This document shows positions 15,435-26,834 of a stretch of DNA of 64,000 nt, one piece after another. The notes under the pieces are model-generated. The model ran no database searches. It saw only the letters and a program-made list of their open reading frames with translations, and had not been told where the DNA came from. This stretch comes from Polaromonas sp. (lineage in GTDB: Bacteria > Pseudomonadota > Gammaproteobacteria > Burkholderiales > Burkholderiaceae_C), in contig JAURWY010000017.1 in assembly GCA_030654695.1 (NCBI GenBank), positions 1-64,000 of the forward strand, read 5' to 3'. Every line of letters begins with the position of its first letter. Within the stretch, counting starts at the first letter, position 1. A program made the position numbers and the translations under genes.

Positions 15435-16487
15435 TCACCATTCTTCGGTCTGTTCAGAGCACTCGGACGCCGCAGGGTTAATACTGCAACGGATCTTCTT
15501 GATCAGCTTGAGGCCCTTCTTGTCATAAAAGCCTTTTTCAGCCATCAACACACGCCCTTGGCGCAACAGCACCGCGTAGCGCTCAGTGTCACGGGTACTG
15601 AAGTCCACCCACATATTCTCTGGCACGTCCTTGTCAGCCAGCTTCAAACTGGCCATGTACAACTCGAAGTTGCGCGCCATGTATGTACGCGCTTTCTGCC
15701 CAAAACCCTTAGGGAATTTGGCGGGGCGAATCACCGTCTGATAGGTCGCGATGGTCATGGGCATGCGGATCACCGCCCCCTTGGTACCCAAGCCCCGATA
15801 CAGCTCAAAGGGCATGTAAACGATAGTAGGCAACACCACCATGTCCACGTTGTGATTGTTGAACATGGCCGCCACGTTACTGAAGTCAACGGAGACAGGA
15901 CGCGCACCGATGCGCTCAACCATATGAGCCTCAGCCTTGTCCAGATCAAAGGTACCAAAGCGCTTAGCCGTTTGGCCTTCTATCGATGCGAACTCCTTGT
16001 TGCTCACAAAAACATAAGCTGCACCAATAGGCAAAATGCCTGCTATTTCATAGGCGCCATCCACCATCATGTCTGCCGCCTTAGGCAAGCTGACCAGCTG
16101 AATGAATTTGCGAACCACGTCATAGCTGGCCGCCAAATCCACCTTGCCATTTCGGATGATCGTGGAGGCGCCGACTGAGTCAAGCGAGGCCGCCATGGCA
16201 TTGAACGCCTTGGTACGCAAGCCAGAGGCCATCAATGCATCGCATTGGCCTGTGCGGAAATCTTCAGCGGCCACACGCTCGTCCACATAAGACTTCGCGT
16301 CAATATCAACCCCGCCCTCCTCGAGCATCTCGTAACGGAAGTCTCTAGCAGCACGAAAGGCGTCTCCACTGGCCCCCTGAGGATCAAACACGCACATCTT
16401 GACTTGCGGCAATGGCGGCGCGGCGACAGCCACAGCAGAAGAGCCGATCAAAACGGCCACTGCACAGTATTTTTTGAAAAATGCCAT
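15435..16487 (-). CDS. AdeT-like periplasmic solute-binding-like protein, copy 2
   Basis: The protein is about 350 residues. A signal peptide ends at AVA-AP near residue 22, and a GAGGAG Shine-Dalgarno just before the ATG at 16487 fixes the start. It resembles the putative solute-binding family that includes Acinetobacter AdeT: a CVFDPQGASGD opening, then YVDERVAAEDFRTGQCDA, then LDSVGA. The overall plan recalls TRAP/PhnD-type binding proteins. The Cys-rich C terminus ends SECSEQTEEW. It is clearly paralogous to the next gene upstream. Adjacency to the ATPase gene (32 bases) suggests a shared transcript and perhaps a shared substrate; no ligand can be named. Confidence 0.7.
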   Translation of the reverse strand: MAFFKKYCAVAVLIGSSAVAVAAPPLPQVKMCVFDPQGASGDAFRAARDFRYEMLEEGGVDIDAKSYVDERVAAEDFRTGQCDALMASGLRTKAFNAMAASLDSVGASTIIRNGKVDLAASYDVVRKFIQLVSLPKAADMMVDGAYEIAGILPIGAAYVFVSNKEFASIEGQTAKRFGTFDLDKAEAHMVERIGARPVSVDFSNVAAMFNNHNVDMVVLPTIVYMPFELYRGLGTKGAVIRMPMTIATYQTVIRPAKFPKGFGQKARTYMARNFELYMASLKLADKDVPENMWVDFSTRDTERYAVLLRQGRVLMAEKGFYDKKGLKLIKKIRCSINPAASECSEQTEEW

Positions 16488-16506
16488 CACAACTCCTCTA
16501 TTTTTT

Positions 16507-17610
16507 TCACCAGTCTTCAGTCTGCTCAGAGCACTCAGATGCTTCAGGTTGAATGCTGCAGCGGATCTTCTTGAGAAGCCTGAGCCCCTTTTTGTCATAC
16601 AAACCCTTTTCTGCCATCAGCATGCGGCCTTGGCGCATCATCAGCACATATCGTTCGTTATCGCGAGGGGTCGAGTCAATCCACAGCTTCTCAGGGATTT
16701 GCTTATCTCCTTGAGCCACGATACCCATCGCTGTCTCGAATTGCGAAGCAAAATACTCGCGCGAATCCTGTCCATAACTTTTGCCAAACTTGGCGCTTCG
16801 GATGATGGCCTGCCCGGTCAAAATCAGCACAGGGAAACGGGAAACACCACCTTTGGTCCCAATGCCGCGAAACAACTCCAACGGTTTATAGACCATAGCG
16901 GGCGCCATGATCACGTCAACCAATCCATTATTGAACATGGTCGCGAAGTTGGTAATATTCGCCGCAACGGGCGTGGCCCCCGCACGCAAAATCAACTGCG
17001 CCTCGGCCTTATCGTAATCAAAGGCTGCCACACGCTTGCCGGCAGCTTTCTCTAAGGTATTAATGGCACGATCGTTCACGAAGGGATACACGGCACCCAA
17101 GGGCATGATACCGGCCAACTCATAGGTGCCCGACACAACGAGTTCCCTCGCCTTGGGCGAACTAACGATACGGACGAATTGGTTCACAACCTCGTATGAA
17201 GCCGGCAGATCGATCTTGCCCTTGCGCACAATGGACGACACACCAACCGAATCCAGCGCTGCAGAAAACGGCAAAAATGGGCGGGTACGCAATCCCGTAG
17301 CCAGCACACCATCACATTGCCCAGTGCGGAAATCCTCAACGGCAACACGCTCGTCAACATAACTCTTTATCTGGATCGTGTGGCCTTTTTTGAGCATCGC
17401 CAGTGAGTAATCCTGCATGGCCCGGCGCGTTTCACCGCTGCCAATCGGGTCAAACACACAGAACTGGATACCGCTGCTATCAGCCTTGACATCGGCTGCT
17501 GCGTGCGCCACATCCCCCATCATGATTGAGGCAATAGCGCAGCCCAGAAAAACAGATGAGAATTCAATTAAAAGCATTATAGAAATTGGTTTTTTAATAT
17601 ATTTATTCAT
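16507..17610 (-). CDS. AdeT-like periplasmic solute-binding-like protein, copy 1
   Basis: The protein is about 367 residues from the ATG at 17610. An in-frame start further upstream at 17655 is possible and no clear Shine-Dalgarno decides. A long hydrophobic signal segment ends near HAAAD. The mature part matches its downstream paralogue throughout: FCVFDPIGSGET, YVDERVAVEDFRTGQCDG, LDSVGVSSIVRKGKID, MFNNGLVDV, RQGRMLMAEKGLYDKKGL, and a C terminus ending SECSEQTEDW. The two genes are only 19 bases apart, so they look like a tandem duplication at the head of the ABC cluster. Confidence 0.7.
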   Translation of the reverse strand: MNKYIKKPISIMLLIEFSSVFLGCAIASIMMGDVAHAAADVKADSSGIQFCVFDPIGSGETRRAMQDYSLAMLKKGHTIQIKSYVDERVAVEDFRTGQCDGVLATGLRTRPFLPFSAALDSVGVSSIVRKGKIDLPASYEVVNQFVRIVSSPKARELVVSGTYELAGIMPLGAVYPFVNDRAINTLEKAAGKRVAAFDYDKAEAQLILRAGATPVAANITNFATMFNNGLVDVIMAPAMVYKPLELFRGIGTKGGVSRFPVLILTGQAIIRSAKFGKSYGQDSREYFASQFETAMGIVAQGDKQIPEKLWIDSTPRDNERYVLMMRQGRMLMAEKGLYDKKGLRLLKKIRCSIQPEASECSEQTEDW

Positions 17611-17990
17611 AACCAAATATACCATTTTAAATAACAAGCAACTCAACTCAACCAAGTTAGAACCACACCTTACAAATCCAGATTAACAGCCAACCAAGGC
17701 CACATCTACTCGGGTAACCCCGTACAGAAAAAAACAAATCCAACGCTTGGAACAAAATACGAAAAGCATGGAACAACACATGACAAGTTAGATTTAACGC
17801 ATTAAATTATGGAAGGAACCAATTGACTAGATATAAACAATTGACAAAAAATATACATGCGCCGATTTGGTGGTCGCACGACGTGGCTACCGAATGAACA
17901 ATTCATGCCGAATACGCCACGAACACAGGCGCATCAAGCATGAATTATTCAGATCACCCCGACCAACCTGCATGAAAGATAGAGGAACTT
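17611..17990. other. AT-rich divergent intergenic region
   Basis: About 380 bases separate the minus-strand AdeT-like gene from the plus-strand PEP-CTERM gene. The stretch 17700-17870 is visibly more AT-rich than its surroundings. A TTGACA at 17841-17846 could be a -35 element for the plus-strand gene, but no good -10 lies 16-18 bases later. No gene, tRNA or strong hairpin was seen. It presumably holds promoters for both directions. Confidence 0.5.
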
Positions 17991-18743
17991 ATGAAATTGA
18001 CCCCGAAACGCATCGTTGCTGCCCTGGCACTCGTCGCCACTGGCGCAGCTCACGCCGACCCCTTGACCGTGATCAAGGGTGGCGCCACATTCCAAGGATC
18101 CGGCACACTGAGTTTCAGTGCCGAACTGCTGGGCGCCCTAGATACCGGCAAGATCGTCACGACCAACTATGGCGCCGTCACATCGTCCATCACAAAGGAC
18201 TCTGAGGGCTACTACAGTGAAATCTCCGTTTCTGCTCCGATGCAAACGCTGACCCTCGACGACACCAGCCTTGCCGTATTAGGTGTTGGCACCAAAGGCG
18301 GCATGACCCTGACGGCCCCAGTGTTGAGGAGCGTCTCCAGCGGCGGCTCTCTGACTGTGACTGACATCAATGCTGACCTGACATCAAAGACCATTTACGC
18401 CACAATCATCGGAGGCAATGGCGTAGGCACCATCAACAACTTTGCTCTGTGGAACTTCGCCACCATCACTGGCACAACCAGCTACACCGGCCCAGGCACA
18501 TACGTGAATGACATGAGCGGGCTGACCCTAACGGCTGACGGCTTCGCCAAGTTCTCGCAATCACTGGGCTTGCTAAGCTTGGGTAAGAGCGCCATGAGCG
18601 GCATCACCGACTACGGCACGATCCACTCGGTGCTGCACACCACATTGGTTTTAACGCCCGACGTCCCAGAACCGACCACATACGCTTTAATGAGTTTGGG
18701 CTTGCTTGGTATCGCATTCACGGCTCGCCGCAAAGCTGCGTGA
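17991..18743 (+). CDS. PEP-CTERM sorting-signal exported protein
   Basis: The 250-residue protein has a strong Shine-Dalgarno (AGAGGAA) before the ATG. It has a signal peptide (cleavage near AHA-DP, residue 22), a Gly/Ser/Thr-rich body likely to be beta-structured, and at the C terminus the VPEP motif, a hydrophobic span and an ARRK basic end. This is the tripartite PEP-CTERM signal recognised by exosortase, usual for proteins destined for the surface or for exopolysaccharide-linked matrix in Gram-negative bacteria. No exosortase or EPS cluster is visible in the window, so the processing machinery must be elsewhere. The function of the body is not recognised. Confidence 0.8.
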   Translation: MKLTPKRIVAALALVATGAAHADPLTVIKGGATFQGSGTLSFSAELLGALDTGKIVTTNYGAVTSSITKDSEGYYSEISVSAPMQTLTLDDTSLAVLGVGTKGGMTLTAPVLRSVSSGGSLTVTDINADLTSKTIYATIIGGNGVGTINNFALWNFATITGTTSYTGPGTYVNDMSGLTLTADGFAKFSQSLGLLSLGKSAMSGITDYGTIHSVLHTTLVLTPDVPEPTTYALMSLGLLGIAFTARRKAA

Positions 18744-18790: not shown

Positions 18791-18817
18791 AAAAGGTAAG
18801 CGTGAAGCTTACCTTTT
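18791..18817. terminator. Bidirectional Rho-independent terminator
   Basis: An 11-bp stem (18791-18801 with 18807-18817) and a 5-base loop have an A-run before and a T-run after. It can terminate the PEP-CTERM gene on the plus strand and the tRNA-Gly transcript on the minus strand. Confidence 0.8.
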
Positions 18818-18822
18818 GAATT

Positions 18823-18898
<76 letters not shown>

Positions 18899-19068
18899 AT
18901 ATCGCTTGCTTAACTTCAGCTTGCGCTGGCGTCTTGATCGCATTGGTGTGTCGCGATCAGCGAAGACCGCTACTATACCGCACTTTCATCATCAAGCAAA
19001 ACTTGTTGCAGCTTTTCGTCATGAACAGGCCATCCTTCGTGAGGCTTGCCCGTACACTTACGCCCTAG

Positions 19069-19157: not shown

Positions 19158-19361
19158 TGATGGGACAGGCAACTGGCCTGAAGCGCGCGTGACGCCGCTG
19201 ACATGAACCCGTCAACAGCACCAGAAAACGAAGACTTTTCTGGCATTGCTGAGTGATGACGATCTACGAACATACCCAGTCAGAGCCAAATGATCCGGTC
19301 AGCATGCCCGGACAACATGGGCTCAGACCGACTTCAACGTAAATCGAACAGGCATTTCGTC

Positions 19362-19844
19362 ATGACAAAAACTCTGGATCTCGGATGCGGCCTCACGCCC
19401 AAAAACCCATTCAATGCCATAGAAACATACGGCATTGATGTGCGTGACGATGCAGATGCGAACATCGTCAAGGCAGATTTGGTTGTTGACCCCATCCCTT
19501 TCCCAGACAACTCATTTGAGTTTGTCACCGCCTTTGATTTCCTCGAGCACATCCCCCGGCTGATATACGTTCCGCAAAGACGCAATGCGTTTGTGGAGAT
19601 CATGAGCGAGGTCTGGCGCGTTCTCAAACCAGGCGGCCACTTCTTATCCAACACACCGGCCTACCCCCACTCCGCCGCTTTTTGTGATCCGACCCACGTC
19701 AACTTCATCACAGAAGAGACCTTCCCCAACTACTTTGACGACGTCCGAACCTGGGCCACGATTTATGGCTTCAAAGGCAAGTTTCACATCGTCAGCCAAG
19801 AGTGGCGCGGCCCACACCTCATGACCATCATGCGCAAGGCGTGA
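19362..19844 (+). CDS. Small class I SAM-dependent methyltransferase
   Basis: The protein is about 160 residues from the ATG at 19362; an in-frame start at 19290 would add 24 residues and no clear Shine-Dalgarno decides. Motif I is LDLGCGLTPKNPF near the N terminus. It continues with YGIDVRDD, an acidic PFPDNSFEFV segment, then FDFLEHI and the VWRVLKPGGHFL motif, all typical of Methyltransf_11/UbiE-type enzymes. It is short for the family, with little beyond the Rossmann core. It is the first gene of a sugar-locus-like operon, so a sugar or small molecule is the likely acceptor, but the target is unknown. Confidence 0.75.
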   Translation: MTKTLDLGCGLTPKNPFNAIETYGIDVRDDADANIVKADLVVDPIPFPDNSFEFVTAFDFLEHIPRLIYVPQRRNAFVEIMSEVWRVLKPGGHFLSNTPAYPHSAAFCDPTHVNFITEETFPNYFDDVRTWATIYGFKGKFHIVSQEWRGPHLMTIMRKA

Positions 19845-19940: not shown

Positions 19941-20711
19941 ATGAACGACACACCTAGGAAGCTGCATATCCTCTACCGTCACGTCCACGTGAAGGCCGAT
20001 GTACGCAGCCGTGACCCCAACAAATCGCGTCCAGAGTGGTTCTCTCACGAAATATGTTTCCGCAACCTGATCAAAACCATCTCCGCTGACCCGCTAGGTC
20101 ATCAGGTGACGCTTACAGTGATGTACGACAGCTCGCTTGAGGATCTGCAAACCGACTTCTTGGCACCCTACATCGCCAACGAGCAATCCGGCGTCAAGCT
20201 GCAATTCATCAAGGGCGGGTCGGACATCAACTCCTTCTTGATCACCCTGGCCTATGCCAAAGCAGCCGATCTGCCCGACACAGATCTGATCTACTTCCTT
20301 GAGAACGACTACCTGCACCAAGACGGCTGGGTCAGCAAGGTCTTCGAGCTCTACAACAGCGGTCATCAGTTCGATGTGGTCTCGCTCTATGACCACAAGG
20401 ACAAATATTTCCTGCAGATGTACCAGCATCTCACGGCCCGTTTGTGCCTGAGCGCATCGCATCACTGGCGCACCACGCCATCGACCTGCGCCTCGTTTTT
20501 GCTGGCCAAAGCCGCATTCGACCGTGACTACGACGCCTTCAGCAGCGGCAAGAACGACTTCTTCTTCTTCTCCGAGCTGATCGAAGGCCGTGGGCGTGTG
20601 CTCCTGTCCCCCATCCCTGGCCTGTCCACCCACTCCATGGAGGGCTATCTCAGCCCCAATGTGGACTGGGCCAAGTTCGCGCAACCCACTGCAAAGGGCT
20701 TTTCGATATGA
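19941..20711 (+). CDS. Glycosyltransferase-like protein of unrecognised family
   Basis: The 256-residue soluble protein begins KLHILYRHVHVKAD. A central LIYFLENDYLHQDGW (near residue 115) looks like the acidic metal-binding motif of a GT-A glycosyltransferase, and later segments contain SLYDHKDKY and ASFLLAKAAF. I could not place it in a named family. It overlaps the start of the DegT aminotransferase gene by 4 bases (ATGA), so it belongs to the operon, and transfer of the aminosugar made there is a reasonable guess. Confidence 0.6.
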   Translation: MNDTPRKLHILYRHVHVKADVRSRDPNKSRPEWFSHEICFRNLIKTISADPLGHQVTLTVMYDSSLEDLQTDFLAPYIANEQSGVKLQFIKGGSDINSFLITLAYAKAADLPDTDLIYFLENDYLHQDGWVSKVFELYNSGHQFDVVSLYDHKDKYFLQMYQHLTARLCLSASHHWRTTPSTCASFLLAKAAFDRDYDAFSSGKNDFFFFSELIEGRGRVLLSPIPGLSTHSMEGYLSPNVDWAKFAQPTAKGFSI

Positions 20712-21877
20712 GCGACAAGCAAATTTTCGTCACCCAACCCTTCCTTCCTCCACTGGCCGAGTTCTCGACCTACCTAGAGGAAATATGGGACAGCAAAGTG
20801 CTGACCAATGGCGGGCCCTTCCATCAAAAATTGGAAAAAGCCCTGTGCGACTACCTTGGCGTTGAGCACATTGCGCTCTTCACCAATGGCACGCTCGCCT
20901 TGGTGACCGCATTGCAAGCGCTGCGCATCACCGGCGAGGTGATCACCACGCCCTACTCGTTTGTGGCCACCGCCCACTCTCTACTGTGGAATGGCATCAA
21001 GCCTGTGTTTGTGGACATCGACCCCAACACGCTCAACTTGGATCCGAAAAAAATCGAGGCCGCCATAACGCCGCAAACAACCGCCATCATGCCGGTTCAT
21101 TGCTACGGCCACCCTTGTGATGTTGACGCCATCCAGAAGATCGCGGACAACTACAACCTGCGTGTGATCTACGACGCTGCACACGCCTTTGGCGTTCAAA
21201 ACAAACAAGGCAGTGTCTTACGTGCCGGTGACCTGTCTGTCCTCAGTTTTCATGCCACCAAGGTGTTCAACACCTTTGAGGGCGGGGCCATCGTCTGCCC
21301 GGATGCCAAAACAAAGCAGCGCATTGATCATCTCAAAAATTTTGGCTTCGTTGACGAGGTCACCGTGGTAGCCCCCGGCATCAACGGCAAGATGAGCGAG
21401 TTCAATGCCGCTTTGGGTGTGCTCCAATTGAAGTACATCGACGCTGCCATTGCCAGACGCCAAGAGATCGACACCATCTACCGAACACAACTCAGCGGCA
21501 TCAAAGGCCTGCGCTGCCTCGATGATTCGGGCGAAACGTGCCAGAACTACTCGTACTTCCCTATCCTGATTGACCAAGACTTCCCCATCACGCGCGACGA
21601 CCTCTACGACATGATGAAGGAGAACAAAGTTTACGCGCGGAGGTACTTCTACCCGCTGATCTCAGAGTTCCCTATGTACCGAGGTTTACCAACGGCCCAG
21701 AGCAACAACCTGCCCGTCGCCACCGAAGCCTCACGCAAAGTATTGTGCCTACCCATCTACCCAGACCTCACTGCAAGCGATCAAGCCCGTGTGATCAAAC
21801 TCATCAAGTCCGTGGTGAGAAATACAGCGCAGGCCCATACCAGCGTGGCCAAAAAAGAAACAGCCAAAGCAGTCTGA
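20708..21877 (+). CDS. DegT/DnrJ/EryC1/StrS-family sugar aminotransferase
   Basis: This 389-residue PLP enzyme of the type that converts a keto-sugar nucleotide to an amino-sugar nucleotide shows FTNGTLALVTALQAL (phosphate-binding region, near residue 58), PYSFVATAH, VYDAAHAFG-like IYDAAHAFG, and the catalytic Lys185 in SFHATKVFNTFEGGAI. Its presence implies that the operon makes or modifies a 3- or 4-amino sugar or a related compound. The amine would be a natural acceptor for the acyltransferase encoded two genes later. Confidence 0.9.
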   Translation: MSDKQIFVTQPFLPPLAEFSTYLEEIWDSKVLTNGGPFHQKLEKALCDYLGVEHIALFTNGTLALVTALQALRITGEVITTPYSFVATAHSLLWNGIKPVFVDIDPNTLNLDPKKIEAAITPQTTAIMPVHCYGHPCDVDAIQKIADNYNLRVIYDAAHAFGVQNKQGSVLRAGDLSVLSFHATKVFNTFEGGAIVCPDAKTKQRIDHLKNFGFVDEVTVVAPGINGKMSEFNAALGVLQLKYIDAAIARRQEIDTIYRTQLSGIKGLRCLDDSGETCQNYSYFPILIDQDFPITRDDLYDMMKENKVYARRYFYPLISEFPMYRGLPTAQSNNLPVATEASRKVLCLPIYPDLTASDQARVIKLIKSVVRNTAQAHTSVAKKETAKAV

Positions 21878-21907: not shown

Positions 21908-23854
21908 ATGAAAACGCCCGAAGTCGGAGATGACAAGCTGCGCACGGCCTACCTCATTCGCGCGTTCGAGGAGAAACTGCTCGCCCTCTACAGCCAAGGC
22001 AAAATCCGCGGCACCGTACACACCTGCATTGGTCAGGAGATGATCGGCTTGGCCGCCACATCACAGCACAAGCAAGGCGATTGGTATTGCTCCAACCACC
22101 GAGGCCATGGCCACTACTTGGCTTTGACCGGCGACTACGTAGGTCTATTTCGCGAAATCATGGGCCTCAAAGGTGGCGTATCTGGCGGGCACGGCGGCAG
22201 CCAGCACCTCTACACAGACGGTTTTATTTCCAACGGCATTCAAGGCGGGATGATGCCCATTGCCTTGGGCCAAGCACTTGCGCACAAACTTCGCGGCACA
22301 GATAACCTGGCGTGCATCTACATGGGCGACGGCACATTGGGCGAAGGCAACGTCTACGAAGGCCTGAACATCGCGTCCAAATGGAGCCTGCCACTGCTTG
22401 TTGTCCTTGAGAACAACGGCATCGCCCAATCGACGCCCTCAAGCCAAACCATCGCCGGCGAGATCGCAGACAGACCCAAAGCCTTCGGCGTGCCATACCT
22501 GGGCTGCGACACATGGGACATCGACGGCCTCATGCAAACGTTTGAGCAAGCCATCCACACCATCCGGACAACACAACGGCCCGTCTTTGTGGAGGTCAAA
22601 ACAGGTCGCTTGCGTTCTCACTCAAAAGGTGATGACACCCGAACAACTGAAGAAATTGATGCACTTTGGGCCAGAGACCCGCTAACCCAACTGCAAGCTC
22701 AAATCAAAGCACAAGATCCGGAATACTTTGATCGGATCGATCTTGAAATCAATCACCACGTTGAACAAGCCTTGCGTCAGACAGGTGTGGCTGTTGAAGA
22801 TCAAGTCCTTGCGTCATCAGGTGCACTCAACTGGACACCGCTACCTCGCTATGCCGCCTACGACCGCATAGCTACCTTGCTCAACCAAAGCTTCAAAACC
22901 CTCATGGCAGAGCAGCCCGACATCGTCTTCATTGGCGAAGACGTGCTGTCACCTTATGGCGGCGCATTCAAAATTGCCAAAGACTTGTCAGATCGCCACC
23001 CTGAGCGCGTGCTGTCCACCCCCATCAGCGAAGCCAGCATTGTCGGCATCGGCACAGGTCTCGCGTTGTCTGGCTACAAGCCACAGGTCGAGATCATGTT
23101 TGGCGACTTCCTGACGCTGGGCTTTGACCAGCTACTCAACCACGCCACCAAATTTCGCACCATGTATGGCCGCGACTTGCCCGTGCCACTGGTTGTTCGC
23201 ACGCCAATGGGTGGGTACCGTGGCTACGGGCCAACCCACAGCCAGTCCATCGAAAAATACTTCATGGGCATCCCCTTCTTGGACGTCCTTGCGCTCAACC
23301 ACCGCATCTGCCCTCAAAGCCTTTACAAGGCCATCTATACAGATTTGAAACAACCGACATTGGTCATTGAGAACAAAGTGCTCTACACAGAGCAACTGAA
23401 AGAGGCGCCCATACTGGGCTATGACTTGCAGCTCAGTGACGAGAAGTACCCATGCCTTCGCATCAAGCCGCAGGACGAACAGGCGCAACTGTCCATCGTC
23501 TGCTATGGCTACATGCTGACCTTGGTTGAGTCCGCTCTAGAGCAAGTTTTTGACGAGCACGAAATCGTCTGCGAAGTCATCTGCCCGACCCAAATTGCAC
23601 CACTGCGCATGGACGCTGTGATCGAGTCAGTGACCAAGACCAAGCGTTTACTCACCATTGAAGAAGGCGTGCTCACGCACGGTTTTGGCTCCGAGTTGAT
23701 CTCACGTTGTATAGAGGCTGGCGCGAGCATTCAGCGCTGCAAAAAAATAGGCATCACCGGTATCATCCCCTCTTCAGCTGAAGCGGAGCTTCAAGTTCTT
23801 CCCAGCGTCGCCAGCATCGTGAACGCCATACTTGAGGTAGCAAGCAGTGACTGA
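21908..23854 (+). CDS. Fused E1 alpha-beta 2-oxoacid dehydrogenase (TPP-dependent)
   Basis: One 648-residue chain carries both E1 halves. Residues about 10-260 are the alpha part with the thiamine-diphosphate motif GDGTLGEG...NN at 140-170 and the GGSQH and SHSKGDDTR segments. After a linker, residues about 315-645 are the beta part with FIGEDV, ISEASIVGIGTGLAL near 373, and GPTHSQSIE with His444. Subunit fusion of this kind occurs in some acetoin/pyruvate-type E1 enzymes. The reaction would be decarboxylation of a 2-oxoacid with acyl transfer to a lipoyl group. No ordinary E2 or E3 gene follows; the next gene overlaps by 8 bases and supplies a lipoyl domain fused to a sugar acyltransferase. 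Confidence 0.88.
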   Translation: MKTPEVGDDKLRTAYLIRAFEEKLLALYSQGKIRGTVHTCIGQEMIGLAATSQHKQGDWYCSNHRGHGHYLALTGDYVGLFREIMGLKGGVSGGHGGSQHLYTDGFISNGIQGGMMPIALGQALAHKLRGTDNLACIYMGDGTLGEGNVYEGLNIASKWSLPLLVVLENNGIAQSTPSSQTIAGEIADRPKAFGVPYLGCDTWDIDGLMQTFEQAIHTIRTTQRPVFVEVKTGRLRSHSKGDDTRTTEEIDALWARDPLTQLQAQIKAQDPEYFDRIDLEINHHVEQALRQTGVAVEDQVLASSGALNWTPLPRYAAYDRIATLLNQSFKTLMAEQPDIVFIGEDVLSPYGGAFKIAKDLSDRHPERVLSTPISEASIVGIGTGLALSGYKPQVEIMFGDFLTLGFDQLLNHATKFRTMYGRDLPVPLVVRTPMGGYRGYGPTHSQSIEKYFMGIPFLDVLALNHRICPQSLYKAIYTDLKQPTLVIENKVLYTEQLKEAPILGYDLQLSDEKYPCLRIKPQDEQAQLSIVCYGYMLTLVESALEQVFDEHEIVCEVICPTQIAPLRMDAVIESVTKTKRLLTIEEGVLTHGFGSELISRCIEAGASIQRCKKIGITGIIPSSAEAELQVLPSVASIVNAILEVASSD

Positions 23855-24953
23855 TCAATCGCCACAAAAAATCCTGATCCCCCGTGAAGGTGCCAGCGAC
23901 GATTATGTGACCCTGATTGAGATCAACGCCCCCGAAGGCAGCGCCGTTCAGGCGGATCAAATTCTGTGTGTGTGCGAGACATCCAAGACCGCATTTGAGG
24001 TCATCTCTCCCGCTGCGGGCTACATCCATTGGGCCCACAACGTAGGCGACCGCATCGCCGTTGGTGCAGCATGTGGCTTTGTGTCCCAACAGGCCATGAG
24101 CCCAGCTCAAGTTCAACACTGGCTTGAACTGGACAAACCTAAAGAAGCCTCGCAGCAACCTGCAGCGAACACCCCAACAGGTGCTGGCCGAGTATCAAAA
24201 GCAGCGCTAGACTTGGCCCAACGGCTTGGTGTTGACCTGAGCGAGCTAGCTCATCTGCCACTGGTTAAAACAAAAGACGTCCAAGACCACAGCGATCTTC
24301 AAAAATCGGCTGAGACACCAAGCAAGGCTATTACACATGGACAGCGCCTCGTCATTTACGGCGGAGGTGGTCATGCCAAGATGTGCATCGACATACTCAA
24401 ACGTCAAATTGGGTTTCAGATTGAAGGCATCGTTGACTCTACGCTGACACCTGGTGCCACCGTGCTCGGCGTACCTGTATTAGGCGGAGAGGACATGCTC
24501 CCTCAGCTGCGCGACGCTGGCGTTCGCTATGCCGTGCTGGGTGTTGGCGCAGCCACCAACCACACGATTCGATCCAAGCTGTTCAACAAGCTCAAGTCCC
24601 ATGGATTTGAGATGCCCAACATCATCCATCCCACCGCCGTGATTGAGCCCTCTGCGCAACTAGGCGAAGGCAACCAAGTGATGGCGCAAGCCTATATTGG
24701 CAGCGATGCGCGGATAGCAGACAACTGCATCATCAACGTACAAAGTATCGTCTCGCACGACGCCCAACTTGCCGACAACGTGCACCTTGCACCCGCCAGT
24801 GTCTTAGCTGGGGGCGTACAAATTGGGACAGACACCTTGATCGGGATGAATACATCGATCTACATGAAAATCAAAGTGGGCGCACGCGTGACAGTGGCCA
24901 ACCAAACATCCGTGGTGGCCAACGTCAAAGACGACAGCTTCGTTCGCCCTTGA
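23847..24953 (+). CDS. Lipoyl domain-E3-binding-like domain-NeuD/PglD-type acyltransferase fusion
   Basis: The 368-residue protein has three parts. Residues about 8-80 form a biotinyl/lipoyl domain with the attachment Lys47 in CETSKTAFEV. Residues about 115-146 (RVSKAALDLAQRLGVDLSEL...VKTKDV) resemble the peripheral-subunit (E3)-binding domain of E2 proteins. Residues about 165-368 are a NeuD/PglD-type sugar N-acyltransferase, with LVIYGGGGHAK at the start, hexapeptide-repeat beta-helix turns, and the probable catalytic His304 in SIVSHDAQL. The usual E2 catalytic domain (HxxxDG) is absent. Together with the E1 gene it suggests that a lipoyl-bound acyl group is passed to an amino sugar; the mechanism is inferred. 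Confidence 0.85.
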   Translation: MTDQSPQKILIPREGASDDYVTLIEINAPEGSAVQADQILCVCETSKTAFEVISPAAGYIHWAHNVGDRIAVGAACGFVSQQAMSPAQVQHWLELDKPKEASQQPAANTPTGAGRVSKAALDLAQRLGVDLSELAHLPLVKTKDVQDHSDLQKSAETPSKAITHGQRLVIYGGGGHAKMCIDILKRQIGFQIEGIVDSTLTPGATVLGVPVLGGEDMLPQLRDAGVRYAVLGVGAATNHTIRSKLFNKLKSHGFEMPNIIHPTAVIEPSAQLGEGNQVMAQAYIGSDARIADNCIINVQSIVSHDAQLADNVHLAPASVLAGGVQIGTDTLIGMNTSIYMKIKVGARVTVANQTSVVANVKDDSFVRP

Positions 24954-25079: not shown

Positions 25080-26414
25080 ATGCGTGTACTCGTCCTTGGT
25101 AGCGGTGTCATTGGTGTGACCAGTGCGTATTGCCTGGCCCGAGCTGGCGCCAGCGTCACCGTCATAGACCGCCAACCTGGCCCTGGCATGGAAACCAGTT
25201 TTGCCAACGCGGGCCAAATCTCCCCCGGCTACGCCTCACCTTGGGCTGCTCCTGGTCTGCCCATCAAAGCATTGAGTTGGATGCTGCAGCGCCATGCGCC
25301 TCTGTCATGGCGACTAGATGGCAGCTTGTGGCAATGGCAGTGGATGGCCAGAATGCTCCGCGAGTGCACCACCGAGCGCTACGCGACCAACAAAGAACGC
25401 ATGCTCCGCGTGGCCGAATACAGTCTTAACTGCCTGCGTCAATGGCGTGCGGAGATGGGCACCGAACTGAGCTACGAAGGCCGCTCACTCGGTACTTTGC
25501 AAGTATTCAGAACCGCAGCGCAGCTACGCCATGCTCAAGCAGACATGGCTGTGCTGACGCATTGCGCTGTGCCATTCCAACTCATGACGCCCGACATGTG
25601 TATCCAACAGGAGCCGGCCTTGGGCTCCAGCAAGGGCCTGCTAACAGGCGGCTTGCATCTCCCGCACGACGAAACCGGAGACTGCCATCTCTTCACGCAG
25701 CAGATGGCCACCAAGGCTCGCGATCTGGGTGTGCAATTCATCAACGACGTCCAAGTAGAGCAACTGCAGCACGACGGCGCACGCATCACCGGCGTGCGCT
25801 TGATCACTCCCCACGGGGCCGAAGTGCGCGTGGCCGATGCCTATGTGGTGGCACTGGCCAGTTACGCGAGAACACTGCTGCTAGAACTGGGCGTGAATCT
25901 CCCCGTCTACCCCGTCAAGGGCTACTCACTGACCTTGCCCATCACCAATGAATGCCAAGCGCCACGGTCCACCGTACTAGACGAAAGCTACAAGGTCGCC
26001 ATGACACGGTTTGATGGCCGTATCCGTGTAGGAGGCATGGCCGAACTGGCTGGATTCGACTTGGCTCTGCGCCAGCGACGGCGCCAAACACTGGAGAAGG
26101 TCGTGCAAGACCTCTTTCCTGGCTCCGGCGCGCTAGATCAAGGCACATTCTGGACAGGACTGCGCCCGATGACGCCAGACGGTACACCCATCATCGGCCC
26201 CACCAGCATAGACAAGCTGTGGCTCAACACGGGGCACGGGACATTAGGCTGGACCATGGCTTGCGGCAGCGGTCAAATCCTCGCGGACCTGATCCAAGGT
26301 CGCCAAACAGCCATTCGCACGGATGACCTGTCATTAAAACGCTACGGCGCATCAGGCGTCAGCCACAGCCCAAAGAGAAAAGCCCCGCCAGGTTCACTGG
26401 AAGGGCTTGTCTGA
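25080..26414 (+). CDS. dadA: D-amino acid dehydrogenase small subunit
   Basis: This 444-residue FAD enzyme oxidises D-amino acids (classically D-alanine) to 2-oxoacids and feeds electrons to the membrane. It has the N-terminal dinucleotide motif [12 protein letters not shown], then [20 protein letters not shown], a DadA hallmark, an internal [11 protein letters not shown], and a C-terminal [16 protein letters not shown] with [18 protein letters not shown] Shine-Dalgarno (GAGGGTG) precedes the ATG. It is separated from the acyltransferase gene by about 125 bases, so it is probably its own unit rather than part of the sugar operon, though it also makes a 2-oxoacid. Confidence 0.9.
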
Positions 26415-26543: not shown

Positions 26544-26581
26544 AAAGGGAAGCCACGTACTGGTATACAGAGCTTCCCTTT
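26544..26581 (-). terminator. Terminator after tRNA-Gly copy 2
   Basis: A 10-bp stem (26544-26553 with 26572-26581) encloses an 18-base loop. On the minus strand the stem ends in a short T-run. It lies directly downstream of the tRNA-Gly gene. Confidence 0.6.
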
Positions 26582-26586
26582 GAATT

Positions 26587-26662
<76 letters not shown>

Positions 26663-26834
26663 ATAGGGCCTGCTACAAGTAGCAGTCTTCGCTTTACAGA
26701 TGCTCTAGAGTTGCCTCTTGCTTTGCTGCGTAGATCACCGTTTGGCCACTTGCATCTTGCGATGCCTGTGCAGTGATCAGCGAAGAGTCGAACTATACAC
26801 CATTTTCAGGCGATCGATCGACACCGTGATTATT

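Follow-up and report, generated by a model that had tools for sequence, protein, structure and literature searches.

In 2-oxo acid dehydrogenase complexes, which are composed of a dehydrogenase (E1), an acyltransferase (E2) and a dihydrolipoyl dehydrogenase (E3), the acyl groups bound to lipoate are delivered to coenzyme A (CoA). The clusters for 4-amino sugars, in turn, need an N-acetyltransferase acting on the 4-amine, namely PglD, LegH or PseH. Moreover, LpxD and LpxA are beta-helix acyltransferases that take the acyl group from the thioester arm of an acyl carrier protein and act on a nucleotide-sugar substrate. The locus described here lies in a stretch of 64,000 nucleotides from Polaromonas sp. 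(contig JAURWY010000017.1, positions 1 to 64,000), the whole of which is referred to as the window, and contains an E1 gene followed by a gene for a protein, named Lip-NeuD, in which a lipoyl domain is joined to a sugar N-acyltransferase of the NeuD type. The pair probably forms a 2-oxoacid dehydrogenase module in which the acceptor has been changed, so that the acyl group on the lipoyl-lysine would pass to a nucleotide sugar, at its 4-amine and apparently for a surface glycan, and E3 would re-oxidise the lipoate. The two genes and the domains of Lip-NeuD are arranged as follows.

21908..23854, plus strand: E1 2-oxoacid dehydrogenase with fused alpha and beta halves, 648 aa (Pfam domains, open reading frame).
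23847..24953, plus strand: Lip-NeuD, with a lipoyl domain, a peripheral-subunit-binding-like domain and a NeuD/PerB-type sugar N-acyltransferase, 368 aa, GTG start (Pfam, NCBIfam, model).
23865..24086, plus strand: lipoyl domain, residues 7-80, with the attachment-type lysine K47 at 23985-23987.
24195..24296, plus strand: peripheral-subunit-binding-like domain, about residues 117-150, with predicted helices at 118-127, 131-134 and 142-155.
24342..24950, plus strand: NeuD/PerB-type acyltransferase domain, residues 166-368, with the catalytic-type H304 at 24756-24758 and a tail without the G-x-P turn.

A first-pass annotation of this DNA, made from the letters alone, had described a fused E1 alpha-beta chain that overlaps by 8 bases the gene of a protein with a lipoyl domain (Lys47) and, in place of the E2 core, an acyltransferase of the NeuD/PglD type (His304), and each of these elements was confirmed. 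The E1 chain holds three E1-type Pfam domains, E1_dh (4e-49), Transket_pyr (1.9e-24) and Transketolase_C (8.4e-14), and its motifs are in place, including a thiamine pyrophosphate (TPP)-type motif from G140 (GDGT) to ENN168-170 and an active-site-type His444 of the E1-beta half (HSQS), whose roles are presumably those of the corresponding residues in E1 enzymes. Among solved structures, the E1-alpha half is closest to pyruvate dehydrogenase. In Lip-NeuD, Biotin_lipoyl was matched at residues 9-73 with 28.6 bits (cut-off 22.1), together with PglD_N at residues 167-249 and Hexapep, and an NCBIfam E2 model spans residues 9-160. The NCBIfam model TIGR03570 (NeuD/PglB/VioB) was matched with 184.5 bits, above its cut-off of 160.8, so proteins of this kind are likely annotated simply as sugar acetyltransferases, with the coupling likely to go unnoticed.

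Besides that of the window, seven further full-length fusions were found, and the members come from at least three phyla. A contig scan returned three of them, from an Akkermansiaceae metagenome-assembled genome (MAG; locus L009), a gammaproteobacterial MAG (L010) and Polaribacter (L011), and whole-genome searches added those of the genomes G310 (L024), G340 (L025), G657 (L039) and G741 (L040). The lysine at residue 47, within ETSKT in the window protein, and the histidine at residue 304, within SHD, are invariant in the eight members, and so are the Glu and Thr of the ETxK motif, E44 and T45. Biotin_lipoyl lies above the Pfam cut-off in all of them (barely in L011, with 22.6 bits), TIGR03570 is matched by all at E 0.01, Hexapep is present in every member and PglD_N in seven, L024 being the exception. 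Conversely, the C-terminal CoA acyltransferase core of E2 enzymes had no Pfam match in the window protein (E 0.1) or in the seven others (E 0.001). The Pfam model spans both biotinyl and lipoyl domains, and a domain carrying biotin instead of lipoate would point to carboxyl transfer chemistry. Nevertheless, this is very improbable, since E2 models (acetoin E2 and 2-oxoglutarate E2) match all eight members with no biotin carrier among the best 25 of 68 families, the lysine is found in ETSK or ETTK and not in MKM, the motif of biotin carriers, and the partner proteins are an E1 and, in one locus, an E3.

The AlphaFold model obtained from the eight-member alignment (mean predicted local distance difference test score, pLDDT, of 82.4) shows a lipoyl-type beta domain, the three helices listed above and the NeuD part. 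When the whole model was compared with Foldseek, its C-terminal part fell on PerB (4eaa; E 1.3e-17, template modelling (TM) score of 0.91 by target length, 40% identity), with the E2-containing models 9a4v and 9a5h at ranks 20 and 24, and H304 aligns with the PerB residue changed in the H141N and H141A mutant chains. The helices belong to a middle domain, at residues ~116-155, that the first-pass annotation had overlooked and whose predicted fold resembles that of a peripheral-subunit-binding domain (PSBD). A 49-residue piece modelled alone returned PSBDs as the top three of 16 Foldseek hits (1w4i, 2eq9 chain C and 1w4j; probabilities of 0.92, 0.92 and 0.89, but E values of 0.5-1.1), one of them solved with lipoamide dehydrogenase. 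Given this order of lipoyl, subunit-binding-like and sugar acyltransferase domains, Lip-NeuD reads as an E2 whose catalytic core may have been exchanged for a sugar N-acyltransferase.

The following scheme is inferred from this anatomy throughout, from the lipoylation of Lys47 and the individual reactions to the trimeric state and the nature of the acyl group and of the sugar. The TPP-dependent E1 would decarboxylate a 2-oxoacid and reductively acylate the lipoyl-lysine, Lys47, of Lip-NeuD, and the subunit-binding-like domain would dock E1 and/or E3 onto the NeuD trimer. The NeuD domain, with His304 as the base, would then use S-acyl-dihydrolipoyl as its donor and acylate a nucleotide-activated 4-amino-4,6-dideoxy sugar, supplied by the neighbouring DegT enzyme, at its 4-amine; E3, mostly a housekeeping one, would re-oxidise the lipoate. 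Free acyl-CoA would not be required in this sequence, so that an acyl group lacking a CoA-thioester pool could be installed. The acyl group may be small, judging from the closeness of the E1-alpha half to pyruvate dehydrogenase. It could be a plain acetyl derived from pyruvate; an acyl group without a CoA-ester pool would better explain the existence of the module.

An E1 gene lies directly upstream of the fusion in the eight loci. E1 is fused in the window, L009, L010, L024 and L039, is split into an alpha and a beta gene in L025 and L040, and is represented by the beta half only in L011. The overlap between E1 and the fusion, of 8 bases in the window, ranges from 1 to 8 in six other loci and is replaced in L025 by a gap of ~17 bases (by eye). 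All 15 NeuD-only matches from the genome searches served as controls, each with 19.0 kb of sequence except for two loci that reach a contig end (14.5 and 12.1 kb), and none has an E1 near the NeuD gene. Thus, the co-occurrence of E1 and DegT neighbours, named in the first-pass annotation as a check, was borne out, with E1 in 8/8 fusion loci versus 0/15 NeuD-only loci and DegT in 5/7 informative fusion loci, the window included and L024 and L025 being those without it. Moreover, the partner E1s of seven loci cluster together on a long branch with 100/100 support, separate from nine further E1-type proteins encoded in these genomes, in a tree that excluded L011, which has the beta half only, and four other E1-type matches (two of G340, one of G454 and one of G657).

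One NeuD-only locus, L047 (4568-6309), has a NeuB-like gene (by eye) and, a few kb upstream, a split transketolase-like pair. A weak E1 hit within this pair (27.7% over 112 aa, E 3.7e-6) was judged by eye and not counted as E1; the pair may encode a further TPP enzyme within a nonulosonic-acid cluster.

The full fusion is rare and scattered. Of the 61 genomes covered from the genus and order of the window, only the window's own has it, five more matches being NeuD-only, and this rarity could suggest chance neighbours, or an accident of assembly or horizontal transfer without functional meaning. Such an accident is barely credible, since the fusion and its gene order recur in eight genomes that span three or more phyla and are seen in none of the controls, and the pairwise identities of 22-41% among seven members exclude a single recent transfer. 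The fusion was found in 3/398 genomes of the window's phylum (its own included) and in 3/395 of the phylum of Polaribacter (that genome included, with eight more matches NeuD-only). In 337 genomes of the phylum of L009's genome, in 295 of the order of G310 (one more match, NeuD-only) and in 230 of the class of G340, only the member already known was found in each case. These five wider searches were limited to matches with E values of 1e-50 or lower and to 5-8 scored candidates per genome, so divergent members may be missed. Regarding plasmids, 57 of 72,556 records matched and none over more than 80% of the query; the 20 best of the 57 cover residues 139 onward, that is, the NeuD part. A spread of this kind would be expected of a horizontally moved sugar module.

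The residues associated with CoA bear on the acyl donor. According to PMC8040287, a conserved last-turn proline in relatives with solved structures is trans without CoA and cis with CoA, and in Pcryo_0637 it corresponds to Asn212-Pro213. The G-x-P of the NeuD tail would be this same turn, judging from its position. It is found in 0/8 fusions versus 6/13 NeuD-only controls (tails counted by eye), and features of the last coil also differ: at position 351 of the window protein, G is found in 0/8 fusions versus 11/13 controls, and at position 352 the fusions have N (7/8) or S (1/8), whereas the controls have A or M in 13/13, likewise seen in alignments of PerB, VioB and PglB. This comparison comprises 13 of the 15 control loci, L041 and L047 being dropped as their full NeuD frame was not returned by the open reading frame picker. 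The pattern fits, indirectly, an active site that may have kept its base and no longer need CoA.

As judged from sequence, the use of acyl-CoA only by the acyltransferase appears disfavoured, since the CoA-associated residues are lost in 8/8 members and no E2 catalytic domain was matched. The same two observations argue against a module that makes acyl-CoA locally, in which E1 would load the lipoyl domain, the acyl group would pass to CoA through NeuD or a housekeeping E2, and NeuD would acylate the sugar from acyl-CoA. Solved NeuD relatives bind CoA or acetyl-CoA according to their PDB titles, and the window genome (3.4 Mb) has eight other lipoyl/biotin-type hits, among which the housekeeping E2 is expected. 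However, with CoA as the carrier, the fusion of lipoyl and NeuD domains would bring little, and local acyl-CoA production is considered unlikely.

The gene neighbourhood is of the 4-amino-sugar or legionaminic/pseudaminic type in six of the eight loci. L009 and L011 have a LegC-type aminotransferase (above the cut-off in L009 and just below it in L011) and a polyprenyl glycosylphosphotransferase-type protein (below the cut-off in both), whereas in L010 NeuB and NeuC lie above the cut-off and a PseC-like aminotransferase and a dehydratase below it. L024 has NeuC above the cut-off and a NeuB-type protein just below. In L039, PseB and PseC exceed the cut-off, a NeuB/PseI-type synthase and a PseG-like protein fall below it, and a cytidylyltransferase is also present. 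No N-acetyltransferase was recognised in the 13 of 16 other listed open reading frames of L039 that were scanned, three of these 13 lacking any Pfam match, and the scan did not extend to the remainder of the 38.7 kb contig or to other parts of the genome; the fusion stands where the 4-amine N-acetyltransferase is expected. It seems fairly likely that CoA-independent acylation from a lipoyl arm to the amine of a nucleotide sugar is a portable function, shared by some four types of 4-amino-sugar pathway, that could install acyl groups for which the cell has no CoA thioester.

With respect to lipoate, the gene run of L024 that includes E1 and the fusion also contains an E3 gene (TIGR01350, 447.1 bits versus a cut-off of 408.8), which was spotted by eye in the list of open reading frames and then profiled, and this is the strongest single hint of lipoyl turnover. 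LipA (lipoyl synthase) was found above the cut-off in six of the eight genomes and a LipB/LplA-type enzyme in seven; G741 has a ligase-type enzyme and no LipA, and lipoate salvage is possible there.

Several observations weigh against lipoyl-borne acyl transfer by the E1 and Lip-NeuD pair. The subunit-binding-like domain is weak by sequence (Pfam E3_binding in 2/8 members, best E 0.0028, the window's own unmatched) and its Foldseek E value is 0.5 at best. An E3 gene lies within the cluster in one of the eight loci, a shared E3 elsewhere being assumed, with no search made for it, and G453 (1.0 Mb of sequence) has neither LipA above the cut-off nor LipB/LplA, which may represent either counter-evidence or an incomplete MAG. 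The sugar context covers neither L025, which was not profiled, nor L040, whose contig is too short and holds E1 and the fusion only. The presence of G-x-P in just 6/13 controls makes its absence alone a weak sign, and the use of CoA by the controls is an assumption. In the NeuD tree, seven of the eight Lip-NeuD proteins group together (96/97) and the most divergent one, L040, lies outside on a long branch; a single clade of all Lip-NeuD proteins is not recovered in this tree, and a single origin of the NeuD half is not shown. In L011 (8600-9990), the sequence preceding the E1 beta half has no E1 match and Lip-NeuD is intact; elsewhere in this Polaribacter genome, the sole E1 alpha match is distant and of the housekeeping type (C17, E 2.8e-51), and the truncation may be due either to rearrangement or to an assembly error.

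Finally, the pairwise identities of E1 and Lip-NeuD are uncorrelated in the seven members other than L011 (Mantel r 0.24, 558 of 5040 permutations as high), and this mirror test gave no signal of co-divergence. Uncorrelated divergence would suit a lipoyl domain that is a docking or regulatory relic, with NeuD using acetyl-CoA alone and E1 performing another reaction, e.g., a TPP-dependent carboligation leading to a branched sugar or hydroxyacid, as E1 enzymes are capable of carboligation. A relic is quite improbable, however, because the eight members, which come from distant groups, all keep K47 and the ETxK motif unchanged, E1 adjoins the fusion in all of them, and the E3 in one cluster makes most sense with a working dithiol. 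The coupling of E1, lipoyl arm and sugar acyltransferase proposed in the first-pass annotation is supported by anatomy and comparison, short of proof.

Upstream of E1, the window contains three further genes on the same strand.

20708..21877, plus strand: DegT-family sugar aminotransferase (Pfam; best NCBIfam model DesI; best solved relative 2po3).
19941..20711, plus strand: possible family-2 glycosyltransferase (weak match, E 0.019), with a 4-base overlap with the DegT gene.
19290..19844, plus strand: methyltransferase-domain protein, a possible sugar-tailoring gene (Pfam).

The DegT gene ends 30 bases before the start of E1, in agreement with the order described in the first-pass annotation. 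DesI is its top NCBIfam model, with 313.9 bits and below the cut-off of 650, and its nearest solved structure is 2po3, which we take to be DesI. In view of these two matches, the acceptor sugar in the window is probably dTDP-4-amino-4,6-dideoxyglucose.

Downstream, a gene for DadA (D-amino acid dehydrogenase) is located at 25080-26414, 126 bases after Lip-NeuD. Of 37 genomes from the genus, only four, counting the window's own, gave a dadA match at E 1e-100, so that dadA may sit in a variable segment, and the other neighbours of the window are unmatched around two same-genus copies (L082, and L083, whose contig measures 4.9 kb). DadA was discarded as a supplier of the 2-oxoacid, as no dadA match was found in the six other fusion loci searched (L009, L010, L011, L024, L025 and L039). 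A direct repeat of 99 nt, 96% identical and containing tRNA-Gly(gcc), is present at 18812-18910 and 26576-26674 and flanks a segment of 7.7 kb with tRNA-Leu(taa), the sugar genes, E1, Lip-NeuD, dadA and tRNA-Cys. This looks like an insertion or duplication at a tRNA cluster, and the G+C content of the segment gives no clear island signal. A gene for a PEP-CTERM protein (17991-18743, Pfam) lies near the sugar genes, and two tandem AdeT1/2-type solute-binding proteins are encoded on the minus strand at 15435-17655.

If the proposed acyl transfer takes place, a swinging-arm machine would have been re-aimed at a biosynthetic amine by one domain swap. This would explain surface-sugar clusters in which the acetyltransferase is missing, would lead one to expect bacterial glycans with unusual N-acyl groups, set by the 2-oxoacid used, and would represent a self-contained route for placing chosen acyl groups onto amino sugars. 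No description of this architecture was found in open-access full texts, which leave out most subscription papers and all bioRxiv preprints, where an unseen description is possible. A paper on flagellin glycosylation (PMC4875605) was set aside, as its 'lipoylation', in the passages that use the term, concerns fatty-acid genes and is unrelated.

Among known systems, LpxD and LpxA, which are weaker matches of Lip-NeuD, share with it a protein-borne thioester arm feeding a beta-helix acyltransferase, whereas in Lip-NeuD the lipoyl carrier is in the same chain and would be loaded by decarboxylation, and the N-terminal domains differ. The LbpA lipoate-binding proteins of sulfur oxidation (PMC6067878) would have in common with Lip-NeuD a protein-bound lipoate outside central metabolism. 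To our knowledge, no acyl transfer or sugar is associated with LbpA.

The likeness to the 2-oxo acid dehydrogenase complexes (pyruvate, branched-chain and acetoin; E1/E2/E3) comprises the TPP-type E1 alpha-beta, the lipoyl domain with its acceptor lysine, the predicted subunit-binding-like domain and, in one cluster, the E3 gene. However, a sugar N-acyltransferase is found here instead of the E2 CoA acyltransferase core, and E1 forms a separate clade, fused in five of the seven loci with both halves. With the NeuD, PglD, PerB and VioB N-acetyltransferases (4ea7, 3bsy, 4m99 and 7txp), Lip-NeuD shares PglD_N and the left-handed beta-helix, the catalytic-type His and the location near genes for 4-aminotransferases, but it differs in the N-terminal lipoyl and PSBD-like domains, the dedicated E1 and the loss of the G-x-P turn and of the G-A/M of the last coil. 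The system would work like a 2-oxoacid dehydrogenase complex but lacks a recognisable E2 core, and looks like NeuD but lacks the CoA-associated features, and it is, therefore, a member of neither family.

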